A stretch of 50,580 nt of DNA from contig VXRD01000147.1 of NCBI GenBank assembly GCA_009838845.1, forward strand, positions 1-50,580. Direction: 5' to 3'. Positions 38,996 to 46,948 of the stretch are shown here, one piece after another. The first letter of the stretch is position 1. Every line of letters begins with the position of its first letter. The position numbers and the translations under genes are program-made. A model generated the notes under the pieces. The model was not told the origin of the DNA and did not search any database. It saw only the letters and a program-made list of their open reading frames with translations. The stretch comes from Gemmatimonadota bacterium (lineage in GTDB: Bacteria; Latescibacterota; UBA2968).

Positions 38996-39973
38996 ATGGC
39001 TGTAAAAGTCGGATTTATCGGAACTGGCGGCATTTCACGCCCCCACCGGAAACATCTCAAAAATATGGATGACGTAGAAGTGGTCGCAATGTGCGATCTG
39101 GAAGAAGACCGCGTCGCAGAAGCCGCCGAAGAATGGAATGCAACTGTCTATACAGATTACAAAACAATGCTTGAAAACGAAGAAATGGACGCGCTATACG
39201 TGTGCATCCCGCCCTTTGCACACCAAGAGCAGGAAATCATGGCCGCTGAAAAAGGCATAGCTCTCTTCGTGGAAAAACCCGTGTCTGTCACAATGGAAAA
39301 AGCCCGCGAAGTCGATGCGGCCATTCGCAAAAACAACGTCGTATCATGCGTTGGATTTCAAGGACGCTATTTAGACATTATCGCACAGACAAAAGACCTG
39401 CTCAAAGATCGCCCCGTTGGCCTGGCAATGGGATACTGGATGGGAGGAATGCCGCAAGTGCCCTGGTGGCGGCGCAAAGAAATGTCGGGCGGACAGGCCG
39501 TTGAGCAAACCATTCACGTCACCGATATGGCGCGGTATCTCTTTGGCGAAGTAAAATCCGTCTATGCGGCCGGGCGCACGGGTTTAATGACCGACGTGCC
39601 CGACTACAACATCGAAGACAGCAGCGCAGCCACGCTCGTTTTTGAAAACGGTCTGGCCGCCACCATCTTCTCCGCGTGTTTTCTATCGGGAGGGCGAGGC
39701 AGAGGCGGCATTGAAATCTTCACCAAAGACATGAACATCGAATATCGCGAGCGCAGATCCATCACCATCATTCAAAATGGCAATTCGGAACTGGTCGAAG
39801 TGCAAAACGATTACTGGCAAGACATGGACAATGACTTTATAGATGCCGTGCGAAAAGGCGACGACTCCGCACTCAAAACCACGTATGCCGATGCCGTTAA
39901 AACACAGGAAGTCGTCATGGCCGTAAACCGATCAATAGAAACGGGCGAAGTGGTTCAGATATCGGATATGTGA
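38996..39973 (+). CDS. Gfo/Idh/MocA-family oxidoreductase
   Basis: A 325-residue NAD(P)-dependent dehydrogenase. The Rossmann start is VKVGFIGTGGISRPH, followed by VEVVAMCDLEEDR. YVCIPPFAHQEQ and ALFVEKPVSVTMEKA carry the conserved EKP lysine. GFQGRYL precedes a C-terminal beta-sheet domain with GGQAVEQTIHVTDMARYLFG, where the His of the substrate site sits. Family members oxidise sugars, inositols and related polyols. AGAAAGGAA precedes ATG 38996. Its stop TGA overlaps the ATG of the next gene (TGATG), although base composition changes sharply there. Confidence 0.9.
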   Translation: MAVKVGFIGTGGISRPHRKHLKNMDDVEVVAMCDLEEDRVAEAAEEWNATVYTDYKTMLENEEMDALYVCIPPFAHQEQEIMAAEKGIALFVEKPVSVTMEKAREVDAAIRKNNVVSCVGFQGRYLDIIAQTKDLLKDRPVGLAMGYWMGGMPQVPWWRRKEMSGGQAVEQTIHVTDMARYLFGEVKSVYAAGRTGLMTDVPDYNIEDSSAATLVFENGLAATIFSACFLSGGRGRGGIEIFTKDMNIEYRERRSITIIQNGNSELVEVQNDYWQDMDNDFIDAVRKGDDSALKTTYADAVKTQEVVMAVNRSIETGEVVQISDM

Positions 39974-40422
39974 TGAAACGAAGAACCATGGATTGGATAT
40001 ACGGCAAAACGCTATCTCGTGGCAGAGCAAGTGATCGTTTTGACATAACTACTGAGTTGGCGCAAAAAGTCAAAGAGATGAATTTGTATGAGAATTTTTC
40101 AGTCCAACGAGGAACAATCAACATTTGTTTAGAACAGGATTTAATTTTTGAATGGGAAGCTGTAATTCATAAATTCCTCTGGAAATCATCAAATATTTAT
40201 TGTGGAGCAAAACTACATAAGTGTACTTTGGGCTGTAAAAATGAAGAAGGCGAATGGGAAGATTCTGTAGCATACCTTTATGATCCTGACAATGAAAATG
40301 ATGATTACAGGGATAATTCTCGCAAATGGGAAGTATTAGCCGAAACGGAGTTTTCTTGGCTTCGATGTCGGGGAGATAAACAATTTGATGTGAGGATCAA
40401 ACTGTCATCGAATGAATTTTGA
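39973..40422 (+). CDS. Hypothetical protein, AT-rich, start of the accessory island
   Basis: A 149-residue protein I do not recognise. It is acidic and aromatic-rich with several Cys (around YCGAKLHKCTLGCKNEEGEW), no signal peptide and no membrane segment. It could be a small cytoplasmic immunity-like or binding protein, but nothing in the sequence shows this. ATG 39973 overlaps the Gfo/Idh stop; a second possible start is 39988. The DNA is clearly more AT-rich than the flanking genes, suggesting recent acquisition. Confidence 0.55.
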   Translation: MKRRTMDWIYGKTLSRGRASDRFDITTELAQKVKEMNLYENFSVQRGTINICLEQDLIFEWEAVIHKFLWKSSNIYCGAKLHKCTLGCKNEEGEWEDSVAYLYDPDNENDDYRDNSRKWEVLAETEFSWLRCRGDKQFDVRIKLSSNEF

Positions 40423-40512
40423 GATAAAGTATTGATCCATATCCGATCGCGTCAACTCATCGCAATAGATACATCTCACTGCTTTACTTCTTTGCCAGCC
40501 TGAGAGGTTATC

Positions 40513-40698
40513 ATGACAAAAATATCGATTTTGCCTATACCAACTGATCGTGGTGATCTTTCATACCACGCTATAGCTGGGAAAACATACGCTCTGGGCA
40601 AAACGGCCATTGACGAGCAGACTGAACTGGAGAAATTGGTCGAAGTAAAGTTGCACGCCTCCGAGGATCGGGCGACGAAGAGTTTTAGAATTGGCTGA
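40513..40698 (+). CDS. Small hypothetical protein (61 residues)
   Basis: ATG 40513 has GAGAGG 5 bases upstream. The peptide opens TKISILPIPTDRGDLSYHAIAGKTYALGKTAIDEQTELEKL. The GDLSYHAIAGKT..GKT pattern recalls a family of short proteins of unknown function common in cyanobacteria; the match is from memory only. The C-terminus (SEDRATKSFRIG) may be truncated relative to that family. It lies just upstream of the dynamin pair and may belong to the same island. Confidence 0.5.
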   Translation: MTKISILPIPTDRGDLSYHAIAGKTYALGKTAIDEQTELEKLVEVKLHASEDRATKSFRIG

Positions 40699-40744
40699 CA
40701 AAGCCTGAATAGTTTGCAACAGACTTATATATATGGAGACAGAA

Positions 40745-41668
40745 ATGTCAGAGTACTCCGGGGCCGATCAGGAGGGTAAGAAAATGTCGAGAAATCACTT
40801 GATCGCTGGTCCCGCCGATCAGAGTGATGGCGACCACGCTTTTGTCGCATCGGTCATTGAGCATGCTTTAGAGCACATGGCGCAAGCTACCCAGGTCATC
40901 AAGGACACACAGACGAGCGGAGGAAAGATATCTGCTTTAAAGGGAGAAATTCCTGAGGTGCAAATGGCTCTCAACGCTGCGGCGAGCGCAGTTCAAAATA
41001 AGACTTCCCTACTAAGACAAGAGCTTGATCACTACCGGGACGGACTGGAGTGGAATAAGCTCTGCGTGGTGATGTATGGCCCCACCAACTCGGGTAAGAG
41101 TACGATTATAGAAGCACTCTCCTATGGTGATGGACAGACCATCGGGACAGGAGAAAAAGACTACACACAAACCTCTCAAGAGATCGAATTCGGGCCACTT
41201 CTGCTGGTGGACACTCCGGGAATTGAGGGGAACGAGGGAGTATTGCGTCTTCGCACACAAACTGCCATTCGCAAAGCGCATGTTGTCCTTGTCATCACAG
41301 GTACGGGCAAAGAACCCGAAGCGGGCGCGCTGAGCAAGCTTGGTGAGGACGCACAGCGTGCTGGGGAAGTCTTGTCTATCCTCAATTTGCGGGGGCGCCC
41401 CAGTGCATACAGATACCGGCGTCGCTTGCACACACGGAGTACCTCTGAGCTTGAAGAACGCATACGGCAAGCCTTATTACAAGTTTTTGCAGATCGGTAC
41501 ACTGAACACTTGAGTCTCAACGCCTACCTTGCTTTTGTCACCTCTCCCGGTGGAATGTCCAGATTCCCGGACAAGCAGCACCGAAGAGATCGAAAACTTA
41601 CTGATGAAATCTTCGGCTCTCTTGACCAGGCGGCTACTCTCTCGGGTATTGGTCAATATAGTTGCTAA
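40745..41668 (+). CDS. Dynamin-like GTPase, LeoBC/LeoC-like N-terminal part (frameshifted gene, part 1)
   Basis: This frame encodes about 307 residues. A helical N-terminal region (about 30-100) precedes a dynamin-type G domain, with P-loop MYGPTNSGKSTIIEAL, switch region TGEKDYTQTSQEI and G3 LLLVDTPGIEGN. No clear NKxD is seen. After the SRFPD segment at 41572 the reading loses its coding character and stops at 41668. The continuation lies in the +1 frame, so 40745-42803 is best read as one gene of about 685 codons interrupted near 41573. ATG 40745 has GGAG 6 bases upstream; ATG 40784, with AGGAGG upstream, is equally possible. Together with the next two frames it forms the Eleos-like dynamin pair. 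Confidence 0.7.
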   Translation: MSEYSGADQEGKKMSRNHLIAGPADQSDGDHAFVASVIEHALEHMAQATQVIKDTQTSGGKISALKGEIPEVQMALNAAASAVQNKTSLLRQELDHYRDGLEWNKLCVVMYGPTNSGKSTIIEALSYGDGQTIGTGEKDYTQTSQEIEFGPLLLVDTPGIEGNEGVLRLRTQTAIRKAHVVLVITGTGKEPEAGALSKLGEDAQRAGEVLSILNLRGRPSAYRYRRRLHTRSTSELEERIRQALLQVFADRYTEHLSLNAYLAFVTSPGGMSRFPDKQHRRDRKLTDEIFGSLDQAATLSGIGQYSC

Positions 41669-42803
41669 GCTCGATGAATTAGTGCGCGAAGCGAGACCTC
41701 GCATCCTCTGGAGTAACGGCTTCAAGGCCATCACGGCACTGGGAGATGTGAGTTCAACCCTCTTAAAAGCCTCCTCATCAATGAACAAAGCGGCCAAACT
41801 CTGGAACAAGGCTATTCGAGATGCTAAAGCTGAATCGAGCTCGACCATCAAGCGCTCACGAATCAGAGTAGGACAGATGATCTCGTCTCGGCTGTCCCGG
41901 CTGTCCAACGAGTTGAAGGGTACCTTCAAAGACGGACTAGATAAAGGTTTCTCATCAAGTAAGTTGAAGCAGGAGTTCCGCTGTGCCATTGATGACGTCA
42001 AACCCGACCTGCAGGACATCGTTGACAAGGAACTCAACGTGCTCCGTGAGGAACTGAAGGTGGAGATGAACCGGCTTCACGAGCGAATGAACTTACGGCT
42101 CTTTGTCACCGACTTCGACCTCCCCGACATGGATGAAATTCTCCGTGACGCCTCCCTGTCCGTCGGACGGGAAGTGATCGATGTGCTTCTAAGCGTTTTG
42201 GGCATAGTACTCCTAGCTTTGGCCAACATCATTGCCGCGATTGTCGCAGGGGTCATGGCAGTGCTGCGAAAACTTTGGGAATGGTTCGGTGGCGGCAAGC
42301 GAAAGCGGAAGCGTGCGGCGAGAACTAAGGCCCGGCGCCAAATCGACAGCGAGATGACCAAAATTCGGAAAGTGTTGGAAGACACTCTCGACGAAGGTTG
42401 GGACAAATTGGGGGCCCAAGTCTCGCTACGCCTCAATGCCGCGGCTCGACTGGTCTCAGCCTTCCAAGATGCCTCCACCAGTCTAAAAGAAAAGGCCATC
42501 ACTCTCGACACCACCGCCACGCAACTCACCACCCGTTTCCTAAAAGCCGATAACAGCACCCCGAAACACGACTTGCTGATTCCGGTTCAGAAGTCCGGAG
42601 GTGGTCACATTGATATGCTCGTGCATGTAGGCAAGGGACCGTGGAAGTTGCCACGACTTTCATCGCTCCCCAAATTCCGCAGCTATCCCGACGCCTACGC
42701 CGTTCGACAAGCACAGGACTTGAAGCGAGGTCAGCGAGACCATGTCTATATGGTGGTCAAAAGGATGTGGAACTCAGAACGGAAGAGGAAAATCCATGGA
42801 TAG
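41529..42803 (+). CDS. Dynamin-like protein, C-terminal helical/membrane part (frameshifted gene, part 2)
   Basis: The genuine coding in this frame probably begins near 41574 (SSTEEIENLLMKSSALL), after a skip of one base from the previous frame; the TTG at 41529 only marks the open frame. It continues with long amphipathic helices (about 60-200 of this frame). A hydrophobic hairpin suited to membrane insertion follows (VIDVLLSVLGIVLLALANII, then AAIVAGVMAVL), with a very basic patch KRKRKRAARTKARR after it. More helices and a small C-terminal domain complete the frame. The stop overlaps the start of the second dynamin gene (ATGGATAG at 42796-42803). No independent ribosome site supports separate translation. 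Confidence 0.7.
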   Translation: MLLSPLPVECPDSRTSSTEEIENLLMKSSALLTRRLLSRVLVNIVAKLDELVREARPRILWSNGFKAITALGDVSSTLLKASSSMNKAAKLWNKAIRDAKAESSSTIKRSRIRVGQMISSRLSRLSNELKGTFKDGLDKGFSSSKLKQEFRCAIDDVKPDLQDIVDKELNVLREELKVEMNRLHERMNLRLFVTDFDLPDMDEILRDASLSVGREVIDVLLSVLGIVLLALANIIAAIVAGVMAVLRKLWEWFGGGKRKRKRAARTKARRQIDSEMTKIRKVLEDTLDEGWDKLGAQVSLRLNAAARLVSAFQDASTSLKEKAITLDTTATQLTTRFLKADNSTPKHDLLIPVQKSGGGHIDMLVHVGKGPWKLPRLSSLPKFRSYPDAYAVRQAQDLKRGQRDHVYMVVKRMWNSERKRKIHG

Positions 42804-44427
42804 TGTGAAAATAAACGATTTCACAAACGCGAAAGATCAGGCGAGGGAACGCTTGGCTCTACTACAACAAACTTGCCAGCAGTATGCAGAGTTTCTTCCC
42901 GTCGAAACCCGAGACGTGCAGGAGAAGATGGCTCGTGTGCGAATCCGGCTCGAACAGGAGGTATTCGAGGTCGCGTTTTTTGGAGCATTTAGCGACGGAA
43001 AGTCCACCATAATCGCTGCGTTGACTAAATCTCTTGATATCCCCATAGCCGTGGAACCCACAACAGATAAGGTAGAACGCTATAGCTACGGCGACTGGAT
43101 ATTTGTGGACACGCCTGGCACCTTTTCGAACAAGCTACTGCACGACGACGTCACCCAGTCATACATCTCCGAGGCGGACTTGGTGGTATTCGTAGTGAAC
43201 GCCGTTAACCCCCTCCCAAAGAGTCAGGAGGATCTGGTGCGGTGGCTCTTAATGGATCTTGGTAAGGAACCGCATGTCATCTTCGCTATTAACCGCATGG
43301 ACGAGGTTGCCGACCTGGAGGACAAAACCGACTTTGAACACCACGGGAAAGTGAAGCAACGGACCCTGTTAAAGACACTGAATGATATATGTGGTAAGTC
43401 GTTCAGTCCCACCGTGGTCACTATCTCAGCCGATCCCTACGAGATGGGAATTGAGGAATGGCTAGATAATCCTGAAGAGTATGAGCATCTATCGAGGCTC
43501 CAAAGCCTAATCGGTGCCATTGAGGAGCACCTTAGTAGGGCCGCAGAACAGATCCAGGCCAACGCAGGCATGGCATCCGTGCGGGATGGCATTGATATGA
43601 TCCTCGAAAGGCTCGAAGATCTCAATAAGGACCTTCAGAATGCCCATGACATGCTGGCGCAACGAGCAACGGAACTCGCACAGGAGCGCGACAGACTTGA
43701 GCAACTGGTGAGCCAAGCCCATCTGGGCATTCGAGAAGACGTCGAATCTATGCGCCGTGATCTACTGGACGGCTTGGACGCCTGCGTAGATCAACGTGCC
43801 CTCAAGAACTTGATTGACCGCGACATCGGAGAGGACGGCAAACATCTGAAGAGGAGGGTAAACATCATCGTGGAGCGCTGGGGGCAGACACTGAGGGGCC
43901 AGGCCAAGCCTATCTTCGAACGAGTCACCGCGAGCATGGAGGAGAACGATAGCCTCCTTGGCGATCTCTTAAAGCGTGGCGGACCGGCACTGGGCAAGGT
44001 ACTCCAGAAGGTCTTTGGCGGAAACGCCCGTCAGATCGCCGACGGCATCCTGCGCATACGGAACATACTGAATATTCCCATCAAATTCAAGCCTTGGGGA
44101 GCCATGAAACTTGCCAAAAATCTTAAGGCAATCGTCTGGCTGGCCCCTCTTTTGGAGGGACTGCCTACTGCGTTCGACATGATCCGAGAGCGCAAGTTGG
44201 CCTCTGCAGTCGCCGAACTCAAAGAATCTATAGATCAAGGGCTGGAAGAATTTTTCGAGACCTTCACCCGTGATGAATTCGAGCAACAGGCCTGTCCGGA
44301 ACTGATCGAGATAAGGCAGATGGCCAAGGAACAAGAGACTAAATTCCGAGATGTCAAAGAAATGCTTCGAGCCAGTGGTGACGCGGTCATTGAATTTCGG
44401 GACCTGAGGCGTAATGAATGGGGATAG
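42796..44427 (+). CDS. Dynamin-like GTPase, LeoA-like
   Basis: A 543-residue protein. An N-terminal helix bundle segment (1-50) precedes the G domain (about 55-260), which has P-loop AFFGAFSDGKSTIIAALT, G3 IFVDTPGTFSN and G4 FAINRMDE, followed by a predicted G5 region near TVVTISADP. Long helices (about 275-400), a hydrophobic stretch around KLAKNLKAIVWLAPLLEGLP (about 435-455) and a C-terminal helical tail complete it. Its length fits LeoA (about 570), the dynamin-like partner of LeoBC in the Eleos anti-phage system. GAAGAGGAAAA lies just before ATG 42796, inside the end of the upstream gene, so the two proteins are translationally coupled and likely act together at the membrane. Confidence 0.75.
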   Translation: MDSVKINDFTNAKDQARERLALLQQTCQQYAEFLPVETRDVQEKMARVRIRLEQEVFEVAFFGAFSDGKSTIIAALTKSLDIPIAVEPTTDKVERYSYGDWIFVDTPGTFSNKLLHDDVTQSYISEADLVVFVVNAVNPLPKSQEDLVRWLLMDLGKEPHVIFAINRMDEVADLEDKTDFEHHGKVKQRTLLKTLNDICGKSFSPTVVTISADPYEMGIEEWLDNPEEYEHLSRLQSLIGAIEEHLSRAAEQIQANAGMASVRDGIDMILERLEDLNKDLQNAHDMLAQRATELAQERDRLEQLVSQAHLGIREDVESMRRDLLDGLDACVDQRALKNLIDRDIGEDGKHLKRRVNIIVERWGQTLRGQAKPIFERVTASMEENDSLLGDLLKRGGPALGKVLQKVFGGNARQIADGILRIRNILNIPIKFKPWGAMKLAKNLKAIVWLAPLLEGLPTAFDMIRERKLASAVAELKESIDQGLEEFFETFTRDEFEQQACPELIEIRQMAKEQETKFRDVKEMLRASGDAVIEFRDLRRNEWG

Positions 44428-44453
44428 AATGCACATGTCTAGATGACATTCAT

Positions 44454-44957
44454 TCACCCCTCCACAAAATCGGAAGATAATACACCTTCATAAGGCGTAC
44501 CAATTTCTGGATCGCGGTACATTCGCAGGCGATATCCCGCGATACCAAATCCTTGAGCTTCCCAAAAAGACAGGGCCATCGGATTATCTCGGCGCACATT
44601 GAGATCCAATTGCCGAATGCCCTTCTTATCGAAGTATTCAAACATCCAGCCCACCATTTTTGATCCATACCCCTTGCGCCGGTATTCCACAGCGATATAA
44701 AAGTCGTGTACATAAGCGGTCGTACTTTCAATTTCAAAAGAGACAAACCCAATCGGCTGTCTCCCAATAAGTGCCCAGTGAGGATGTCGATTGCCGCCAG
44801 CCCAGGTAAACGTCTCTTCAAAAAAAGAATCGCGCGATTCCCGCGACTTACACACTTGTGCATCGGGCATTAAATCTCGCCAATAAGCCTCGGCCATAGC
44901 GCGGAATTGCTCACGCGCTTCAACGGGTACGGGTTCAATGTAAAGATCGCTTGTCAT
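44454..44957 (-). CDS. GNAT-family N-acetyltransferase
   Basis: A 167-residue acetyltransferase. The acetyl-CoA pyrophosphate loop is YRRKGYGSKM after the beta4 strand (AYVHDFYIAVEYR). NVRRDNPMALSFWEAQGFGIAGYRLRM is the characteristic C-terminal half, and GFVSFEIES supplies the preceding strand. The substrate is unknown. It is convergent with the LeoA-like gene (26-base gap). The 144 bases between this gene and the antitoxin gene hold no feature I can support. Confidence 0.88.
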   Translation of the reverse strand: MTSDLYIEPVPVEAREQFRAMAEAYWRDLMPDAQVCKSRESRDSFFEETFTWAGGNRHPHWALIGRQPIGFVSFEIESTTAYVHDFYIAVEYRRKGYGSKMVGWMFEYFDKKGIRQLDLNVRRDNPMALSFWEAQGFGIAGYRLRMYRDPEIGTPYEGVLSSDFVEG

Positions 44958-45101
44958 AGAAACGCGAAAGGTGAGACAGTCACCGAACCCCCAATCAATA
45001 AACCCGAAAATTTGCCATTGTAAAACGCGATAGTCGGCAAATAATTCATCGAGATCGAGCCATTATTCCCCGATGTTCCCTTCGTCTCTTCAATGCTCTG
45101 G

Positions 45102-45350
45102 TCACGGCAAGCGGTCATTGGGTTCCGGCGGTTGGCCTCCGACCCGCCGAATAATGCACCGTGCCGTCTCAATATCGGCCTCGGCGGCGCGTGCAGCGAA
45201 GAATTCAGCGGTTCTCATAGCGGATACCTTTTCCGCTACTGCTGTCACCACGAACTGATTGATGCTCGTGCCATCTTTCTTGCTGAGTTCGGCGACAGCC
45301 TCCTTTAGAGAAGCGGGCAGCCGCAATGGATAGGTGCTCGGTTTTCTCAT
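45102..45350 (-). CDS. Ribbon-helix-helix antitoxin
   Basis: An 82-residue protein. Residues 5-45 form a ribbon-helix-helix (YPLRLPASLKEAVAELSKKDGTSINQFVVTAVAEKV), the DNA-binding fold of Arc/HicB/VapB-type antitoxins. The rest is a flexible toxin-binding tail rich in Ala and Pro. It should neutralise the PIN toxin encoded immediately upstream and repress the shared promoter. Its ATG overlaps the toxin stop by 3 bases (ATGA), so the order is toxin first, the reverse of most VapBC operons. Confidence 0.82.
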   Translation of the reverse strand: MRKPSTYPLRLPASLKEAVAELSKKDGTSINQFVVTAVAEKVSAMRTAEFFAARAAEADIETARCIIRRVGGQPPEPNDRLP

Positions 45351-45769
45351 TCAGATATCCTCCTCAATGCCTCTTGGGGTGACAACACCGCGATTCCAAA
45401 GCGTTCGGGGGCATCGCCGAAATGCCGCCGGTTGAAAGTAACCAATCCGTCGGCGTTGCCGTTGATGGCGGCCTCGAGTACCATCTCATCGGCCGGATCG
45501 CGCAACTGAGGACGCCACAGAAACCACATTACAACAGGCTCCGCAACCTGGCAAAGCGCGGAGATGACCGTTCCCACGTCTGCTTCGCTAAGACCCGAAG
45601 CGATTCGTTGCGTCTGATCACAGCACACCGCCTCATATTCGAGTGTCAGTGCCACAGAAAGAAGCAACGTGAACGCCCGGCACAAGGCCCGATCAATCAG
45701 TGCTGCTGAGGCACCAGTTGGGCTACGCAGCCCGGCGACGATAACGTCAGTGTCCAGTACGTAACGCAT
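45347..45769 (-). CDS. PIN-domain toxin (VapC-like, COG1569 type)
   Basis: A 140-residue PIN nuclease. The first acidic motif is in VLDTDVIVAGL (Asp6, Asp8), a Glu lies in TLEYEAV, and the later acidic cluster is in RDPADEMVLEAAINGNADGLVTFNRRHF, the typical signature of the COG1569 putative toxin family. It likely cleaves RNA (a tRNA or rRNA target). It is the first gene of the pair, preceded by a promoter with a built-in inverted repeat. The DAO oxidoreductase gene ends 42 bases upstream. Confidence 0.85.
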   Translation of the reverse strand: MRYVLDTDVIVAGLRSPTGASAALIDRALCRAFTLLLSVALTLEYEAVCCDQTQRIASGLSEADVGTVISALCQVAEPVVMWFLWRPQLRDPADEMVLEAAINGNADGLVTFNRRHFGDAPERFGIAVLSPQEALRRISE

Positions 45770-45774
45770 ACTTC

Positions 45775-45803
45775 AATATATGACATCATATACGATGTCG
45801 CAA
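45775..45803 (-). promoter_or_regulatory. Toxin-antitoxin promoter with operator in the spacer
   Basis: On the minus strand TTGCGA (45803-45798), a 17-base spacer, then TATATT (45780-45775). A perfect inverted repeat GACATC-6-GATGTC (45782-45799) fills the spacer, a natural binding site for the ribbon-helix-helix antitoxin. The predicted start is within 10 bases of the toxin ATG. Confidence 0.55.
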
Positions 45804-45811
45804 TGGCGTTA

Positions 45812-46948
45812 TCACGGCGACCGCTCGAGGCGATATCGCCTCAAAAAATCTATTCGAGCACCATCCAAAATCTCAATCGCCGCGCATTCGCCAATTAAAG
45901 GTGCGAGCGTAACCCCGCTGTGTGTCACAGACAAATAGAGATTTGGAACCCGTTGAGCAAATCCGAGAATCGGGTGTCCGTCCTTTGGAATTGGCCGTCG
46001 CCCGCGCCGGACCTCGCGCACGGGCACGCCTTCAATTGCAGGCAAAAAACGCGCCACGGCATCGACCACCTGCTGCACTTCTCGATCATCCTGCCCGAGC
46101 GAACCACCATCGTACACGCGACCGTGCGCCCCGCCGTGAAGCATCACCGAACCGTTGGGCAACTGCCTGAAATTGGTCTGCGGAGGACAATCTCGGGGCG
46201 AATGCACCACCGATGCGTTTTCAAAAACAGGTGGCACAGGCTCTGTCAAAATCGTACATCCAAACGTGTAATACACAGGCACATCAACATCTGCCATTGC
46301 CGCGAGACTTGCCGTATCTGCTCCCCCTGCAAGCACAACTGCATCACACGCAATCTCTCCCCTGTCCGTCACCACAGCCTCTATATCTGCCCCCGAACGC
46401 GCCAGCCCTGTGACGTGTGTCCCCAAAAAAATATCCGCGCCCCATTCCTCCAACCGTTCGACACATGCCCCAACAACAGCCCCTGTATCTGCGTGTCCTT
46501 CTATATCCGTATAAGAAGCTGCCGTCACAACGCCCGGCGTCAAACGCGGCTCTAATGATGCAACCTCCCCCCCATTCAACAGACGGATGGGATATCCCCA
46601 AGACTGCAAAACGCCCGCACGCTTCACAATTTCCCGCGCCCCATCATCCGTAGATGCCCACCGCAATTCACCGCCCCATGTCGCGCTTTGCGGTATGCCC
46701 AGTCGCTCGACAAATCGCGCCCACATATCCAGCGAACGCCGGTTGAAAAGATGATAATATCTGGGGTTTTTGTCACGTGCATTCATCCATGCAAAAGATA
46801 CAGCAGTTGCCGGTTGAACTGCTGATCTTTTCCCGGGTTCGCCCGCGTCAATCAGCGTGACCTTTGCACCGCGTCTCGCCAGGTGAAATGCGATTGATGC
46901 CCCTACGATACCCGCGCCAATCACAGCGATATTTGAAAAATTGTTCAT
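45812..46948 (-). CDS. FAD-dependent oxidoreductase, DAO (D-amino acid oxidase/glycine oxidase) family
   Basis: A 378-residue flavoprotein. The dinucleotide-binding N-terminus is IAVIGAGIVGASIAFHLARRGAKVTLID. FAWMNARDKNPRYYHLFNRRS resembles the substrate-binding start of the family, CDAVVLAGGADTASLA is the second FAD-contact strand, and the closing PNLYLSVTHSGVTLAPLIGECAAIEI is the canonical C-terminal FAD motif. It oxidises an amine or amino acid. ATG 46948 is preferred over a longer frame because it starts the FAD domain and AAAGGG precedes it. It lies directly downstream of the AGCS transporter gene, separated by a terminator; uptake and oxidation of an amino acid is a plausible joint role. 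Confidence 0.88.
   Translation of the reverse strand: MNNFSNIAVIGAGIVGASIAFHLARRGAKVTLIDAGEPGKRSAVQPATAVSFAWMNARDKNPRYYHLFNRRSLDMWARFVERLGIPQSATWGGELRWASTDDGAREIVKRAGVLQSWGYPIRLLNGGEVASLEPRLTPGVVTAASYTDIEGHADTGAVVGACVERLEEWGADIFLGTHVTGLARSGADIEAVVTDRGEIACDAVVLAGGADTASLAAMADVDVPVYYTFGCTILTEPVPPVFENASVVHSPRDCPPQTNFRQLPNGSVMLHGGAHGRVYDGGSLGQDDREVQQVVDAVARFLPAIEGVPVREVRRGRRPIPKDGHPILGFAQRVPNLYLSVTHSGVTLAPLIGECAAIEILDGARIDFLRRYRLERSP

Follow-up and report, generated by a model that had tools for sequence, protein, structure and literature searches.

An Eleos-family dynamin gene pair with a frameshifted leoBC in a small accessory block

Identification of the dynamin-like gene pair as Eleos

The window analysed here (a single 50,580-nucleotide stretch of DNA) carries two dynamin-like genes in tandem at positions 40745-44427, and this locus raises the question of whether they encode an Eleos (LeoBC + LeoA) system, as proposed by a sequence-only reading that took them for a candidate anti-phage pair, or housekeeping dynamins of the DynA/DynB or BDLP type. 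Both genes lie on the forward strand, leoBC at 40745-42803 followed by leoA (intact, 543 aa) at 42796-44427, and its database matches assign the pair to the known Eleos family, of which it is an unremarkable representative. In PADLOC both proteins matched the Eleos profiles (PDLC03841 and PDLC03839) over nearly their full length: LeoA matched the LeoA profile PDLC03839 at 1.4e-83 (profile positions 4-543 of 559), and the two frames of leoBC matched consecutive parts of one LeoBC profile of 601 positions at 4.9e-48 (16-274) and 1.2e-20 (280-565). The intact LeoBC proteins of two related genomes, G047 and G050, matched the same profile at 4.7e-70 and 3.9e-71. LeoA also scored above the cutoff of NCBIfam NF041922 (LeoA/HP0731 family; 377.9 bits, cutoff 325) and matched Pfam PF18709 (DLP_helical) at 3e-42, while its top PDB match was the solved LeoA structure 4aur (9.3e-44; runner-up 3.9e-05), to which it is homologous across residues 25-520. 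The genetic traits expected of Eleos, namely a LeoA and a LeoBC protein encoded by co-directional, adjacent and overlapping genes with an accessory, patchy distribution, were found at this locus.

A housekeeping dynamin was rejected as the identity of the pair. The score for the DynA profile NF052648 was 30 bits, where the cutoff is 1600, no BDLP structure occurred among the PDB matches, and the pair is not conserved at this locus, with empty sites in six congeners. DynA of Bacillus subtilis likewise has two dynamin units, but it is a single fused protein with no family-level match to the window pair. A phage origin was also rejected, as no relative was found in viral contigs and there was no useful PHROGs match. 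Identity to the enterobacterial members of the family is low (LeoA 26%, LeoBC 19%; 19-26% when enterococcal members are included), and a scan of genome contigs for relatives returned only Cohnella, at 33% identity. The assignment places Eleos in a phylum represented here by 64 genomes; the biology of the pair is unsurprising.

Gene structure and motifs

The overlap between the two genes noted in the sequence-only reading is real and spans 8 bases, ATGGATAG, at 42796-42803; G047 and G050 likewise have an overlap of 8 bases. No single frame spans the first gene, which is instead open in two, one running from 40733 or 40745 in frame 2 to a TAA stop at 41666-41668 (311 aa from 40733) and the other, in the +1 frame (frame 3), ending at 42803. 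The likely start is 40745, where GGAG lies a few bases upstream of the ATG, and from this position the joined protein has about 685 residues, as had been estimated.

A P-loop and a DTPG motif are present in both proteins, in agreement with the same reading. LeoA has the P-loop GAFSDGKST, DTPG and NRMD, and LeoBC has the P-loop GPTNSGKST, DTPG, and N-L/V-R-G where NKxD would be expected. The earlier suggestion that the first protein lacks a clear NKxD was borne out, but this does not single it out as a divergent variant, since none of the eight aligned LeoBC proteins (window, G047, G050, G011, Cohnella, Enterococcus, Chryseobacterium and Raoultella) has this motif; its absence is common to every LeoBC compared. 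The Enterococcus, Chryseobacterium and Raoultella proteins differ from the other five in a long insert that follows the P-loop. LeoBC of the window type also differs from known Eleos members in having about 85 C-terminal residues beyond the profile-matched part.

Membrane-suited hydrophobic segments had been claimed for both proteins. LeoBC does have a strongly hydrophobic stretch, LSVLGIVLLALANIIAAIV, with a mean Kyte-Doolittle hydropathy of 2.7 over 19 residues, which lies within a hydrophobic hairpin encoded at 42183-42266 (forward strand) and is a candidate membrane paddle, but the best mean in LeoA was only 1.4. The predicted structure of read-through LeoBC, from a two-sequence alignment, had a mean pLDDT of 54 and was used for secondary structure only; it suggests an alpha/beta head, long helices and a small C-terminal strand pair, the two strands in the 85-residue extension being predicted with low confidence.

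An accessory block between conserved flanks

The leo genes lie within an accessory block of approximately 5.8 kb (39978-45819), which six of ten congeners lack at this position. In these six genomes (G006 to G011) the empty sites are clean, the equivalents of 39977 and 45820 in the window lying only approximately 11-15 bases apart, and the block flanks are approximately 90-95% identical in most congeners. On one side the flanking genes encode a membrane protein, which we take to be UPF0182-like, and a Gfo/Idh oxidoreductase, and on the other an FAD oxidoreductase. At the same site G013 and G014 carry other guests, a 177-aa unknown protein (with a 180-aa partner in G014) and a GNAT acetyltransferase, and G012 retains a remnant.

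The block itself begins with an AT-rich, unrecognised 150-aa ORF at its left edge (39970-40422, forward strand), which matches no protein family and has no homologue in the 14 further genomes of the host's taxonomic family, followed by an unrecognised 61-aa ORF (40513-40698, forward strand), also without family matches. Downstream of leoA, on the reverse strand, are a GNAT acetyltransferase (44454-44957; PF00583, 5.8e-16), which is the guest shared with G013 and G014 and present as a remnant in G012, an antitoxin-like ribbon-helix-helix protein (45102-45350; NF041551 above cutoff, weak HicB match) and a PIN-domain toxin-like protein (45347-45769; PF13470, 3.8e-20; TIGR00305 above cutoff). No full copy of the PIN/antitoxin pair (45102-45769) was found among the ten congeners. 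The description of these surroundings as a defence island was overstated: the PIN/antitoxin pair and two unrecognised ORFs are there, but the block is only 5.8 kb long, sits between metabolic genes and is not defence-rich. Similarly, AT-rich DNA is confined to 39600-40800 (42-45% GC), while the leo genes have 50-55% GC.

Distribution and horizontal movement

Six of the 64 genomes of the phylum had a LeoA-profile match at 1e-15. LeoA-like and LeoBC-like matches were both present in G000, G011, G047 and G050, and the remaining two, G030 and G031, had one weaker, partial match each. In G047 and G050, which belong to another family of the same class, the Leo pair is found at a different chromosomal site, flanked by a PpiC-type and an enolase-family protein, with approximately 76% DNA identity to the window and protein identities of 70-74% for LeoA and 67-70% for LeoBC. 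Homology to the window is restricted to approximately 40796-44432, that is, to the operon alone, plus some 80 bases upstream in G050 (40677-40757). The corresponding site in the sister genomes G042, G043 and G046 holds a 177/180-aa gene pair and no leo genes. Because the window site is empty in congeners and the operon lies at another site that is itself free of leo genes elsewhere, horizontal movement is supported, and the operon was most likely acquired horizontally. The leoBC-leoA operon is the unit common to two unrelated chromosomal sites in different genera. Plasmid-borne relatives adjoin DUF262, WYL or PD-(D/E)XK genes.

A frameshift in leoBC

DNA alignment of leoBC with G047 and G050 (75% and 74% identity, respectively) revealed that the window copy of TGGTCAATATAGTT is longer by a single base, located near 41657 (41655-41661, forward strand), and the remaining gaps from 40955 on are of three bases each. 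As leoBC is intact in both relatives (724 and 723 codons), the first protein needs joining because of a single-base frameshift in the present copy and not because of a family trait. The first frame ends between the GTPase head and the stalk of LeoBC. A functional copy would have both genes intact; the extra base bears on the activity of this copy, not on its family membership.

Nei-Gojobori dN/dS values between the window and its relatives were 0.16-0.17 before the site and 0.25-0.28 after it for LeoBC and 0.14-0.19 for LeoA, compared with 0.25-0.34 between G047 and G050, and thus no relaxed constraint is visible in either half of leoBC or in LeoA. Of the other long ORFs of the window, almost every one has a full-length counterpart in G013 or G011. 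With the other long genes apparently intact and both halves of leoBC under purifying selection, the event is either recent or a lone sequence error. We favour a real, recent mutation, and regard a sequencing or assembly error, in which case the operon would be intact and active, as a possibility to be taken seriously but the less probable one. The assembly is a 172-contig draft, no second lesion occurs within 2 kb, and the purifying selection on both halves is similar to that seen between G047 and G050, all of which would suit an error; against it, the extra base is not in a homopolymer, and the unbroken long ORFs suggest that the assembly is not generally poor.

It is far less probable that LeoBC is deliberately made as two pieces, by frameshifting or by re-initiation just past the stop, in the manner of E. 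coli leoC/leoB. Such a split leoBC occurs, and has been re-sequenced, in E. coli H10407 (PMC4159319), whose LeoA is the homologue solved as 4aur, and a GTG occurs in the second frame approximately 13 bases past the stop. However, the E. coli split falls inside the GTPase domain and the window break after the head, no clear ribosome-binding site precedes the GTG, and G047 and G050, the closest relatives, keep one unbroken frame at this position, for which reason programmed frameshifting was rejected. Were LeoBC nevertheless produced in this way, a GTPase head and a separate stalk/paddle polypeptide would represent a second, independent way of splitting the protein. Under the favoured reading of a recent mutation, LeoBC ends after its GTPase head, so the Eleos system as assembled is probably inactive in the present genome unless the extra base is a sequence error, and the broken leoBC suggests that this lineage has lost the system.

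Proposed function

Eleos has reportedly been shown to be anti-phage by Millman et al. in 2022. A survey places Eleos among dynamins acting in defence (PMC11811056), and DynA has been reported to delay lysis after phage infection but not to stop replication (PMC8844932). LeoA is a dynamin; on its own it bound no nucleotide, and a heterodimer with LeoBC has been proposed (PMC4159319). We consider it highly probable that the window carries an Eleos-type operon of coupled LeoBC and LeoA dynamins that arrived horizontally at a small variable site and would encode a membrane-acting anti-phage pair, with leoBC broken in this copy. In this model the two genes would be translationally coupled, and in the intact relatives the two GTPases would most likely form a hetero-oligomer, in which the hydrophobic hairpin would let LeoBC dock on the inner membrane and the heads of LeoA and LeoBC would pair across their GTP sites. 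Phage attack would trigger assembly at the membrane, which would be protected or remodelled, so as to limit phage release or bring about abortive infection.

Several observations count against an anti-phage role, among them the low identity to enterobacterial members, a neighbourhood that is not defence-rich, and the fact that LeoA of E. coli H10407 was connected with vesicle secretion and not with defence; in that strain, mutants in LeoA and LeoB release fewer vesicles (PMC4159319). A dynamin pair serving membrane maintenance or vesicle release instead of defence is nonetheless improbable in our view: such a role predicts fixed presence at one locus, which was looked for and not seen, the congeners having clean empty sites and the phylum a patchy distribution, and the match to DynA is poor.

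Other Leo-like proteins and guests

The congener G011 carries a second, distant LeoBC/LeoA pair of the genus (18-21% identity) that is split at contig ends (L038:17391-19226 and L039:17675-19408) and matches PADLOC profiles at 1.5e-89 and 4.9e-113. The partial matches in G030 and G031 correspond to a 626-aa protein (L048:8432-10312 and L049:2140-4020; LeoA profile, 3.7e-16 and 3.0e-18) for which no LeoBC partner was seen. The overlapping 177/180-aa gene pair is present in G047 (L036:5734-6796), G042, G043, G046, G014 and G035, with the first gene alone in G013, and had no match in Pfam, NCBIfam, PADLOC or PHROGs. It occurs as a guest at two places, the Leo site of genus g11 and, in genus g1, the site of the window block, and may represent an undescribed toxin-antitoxin or defence module.
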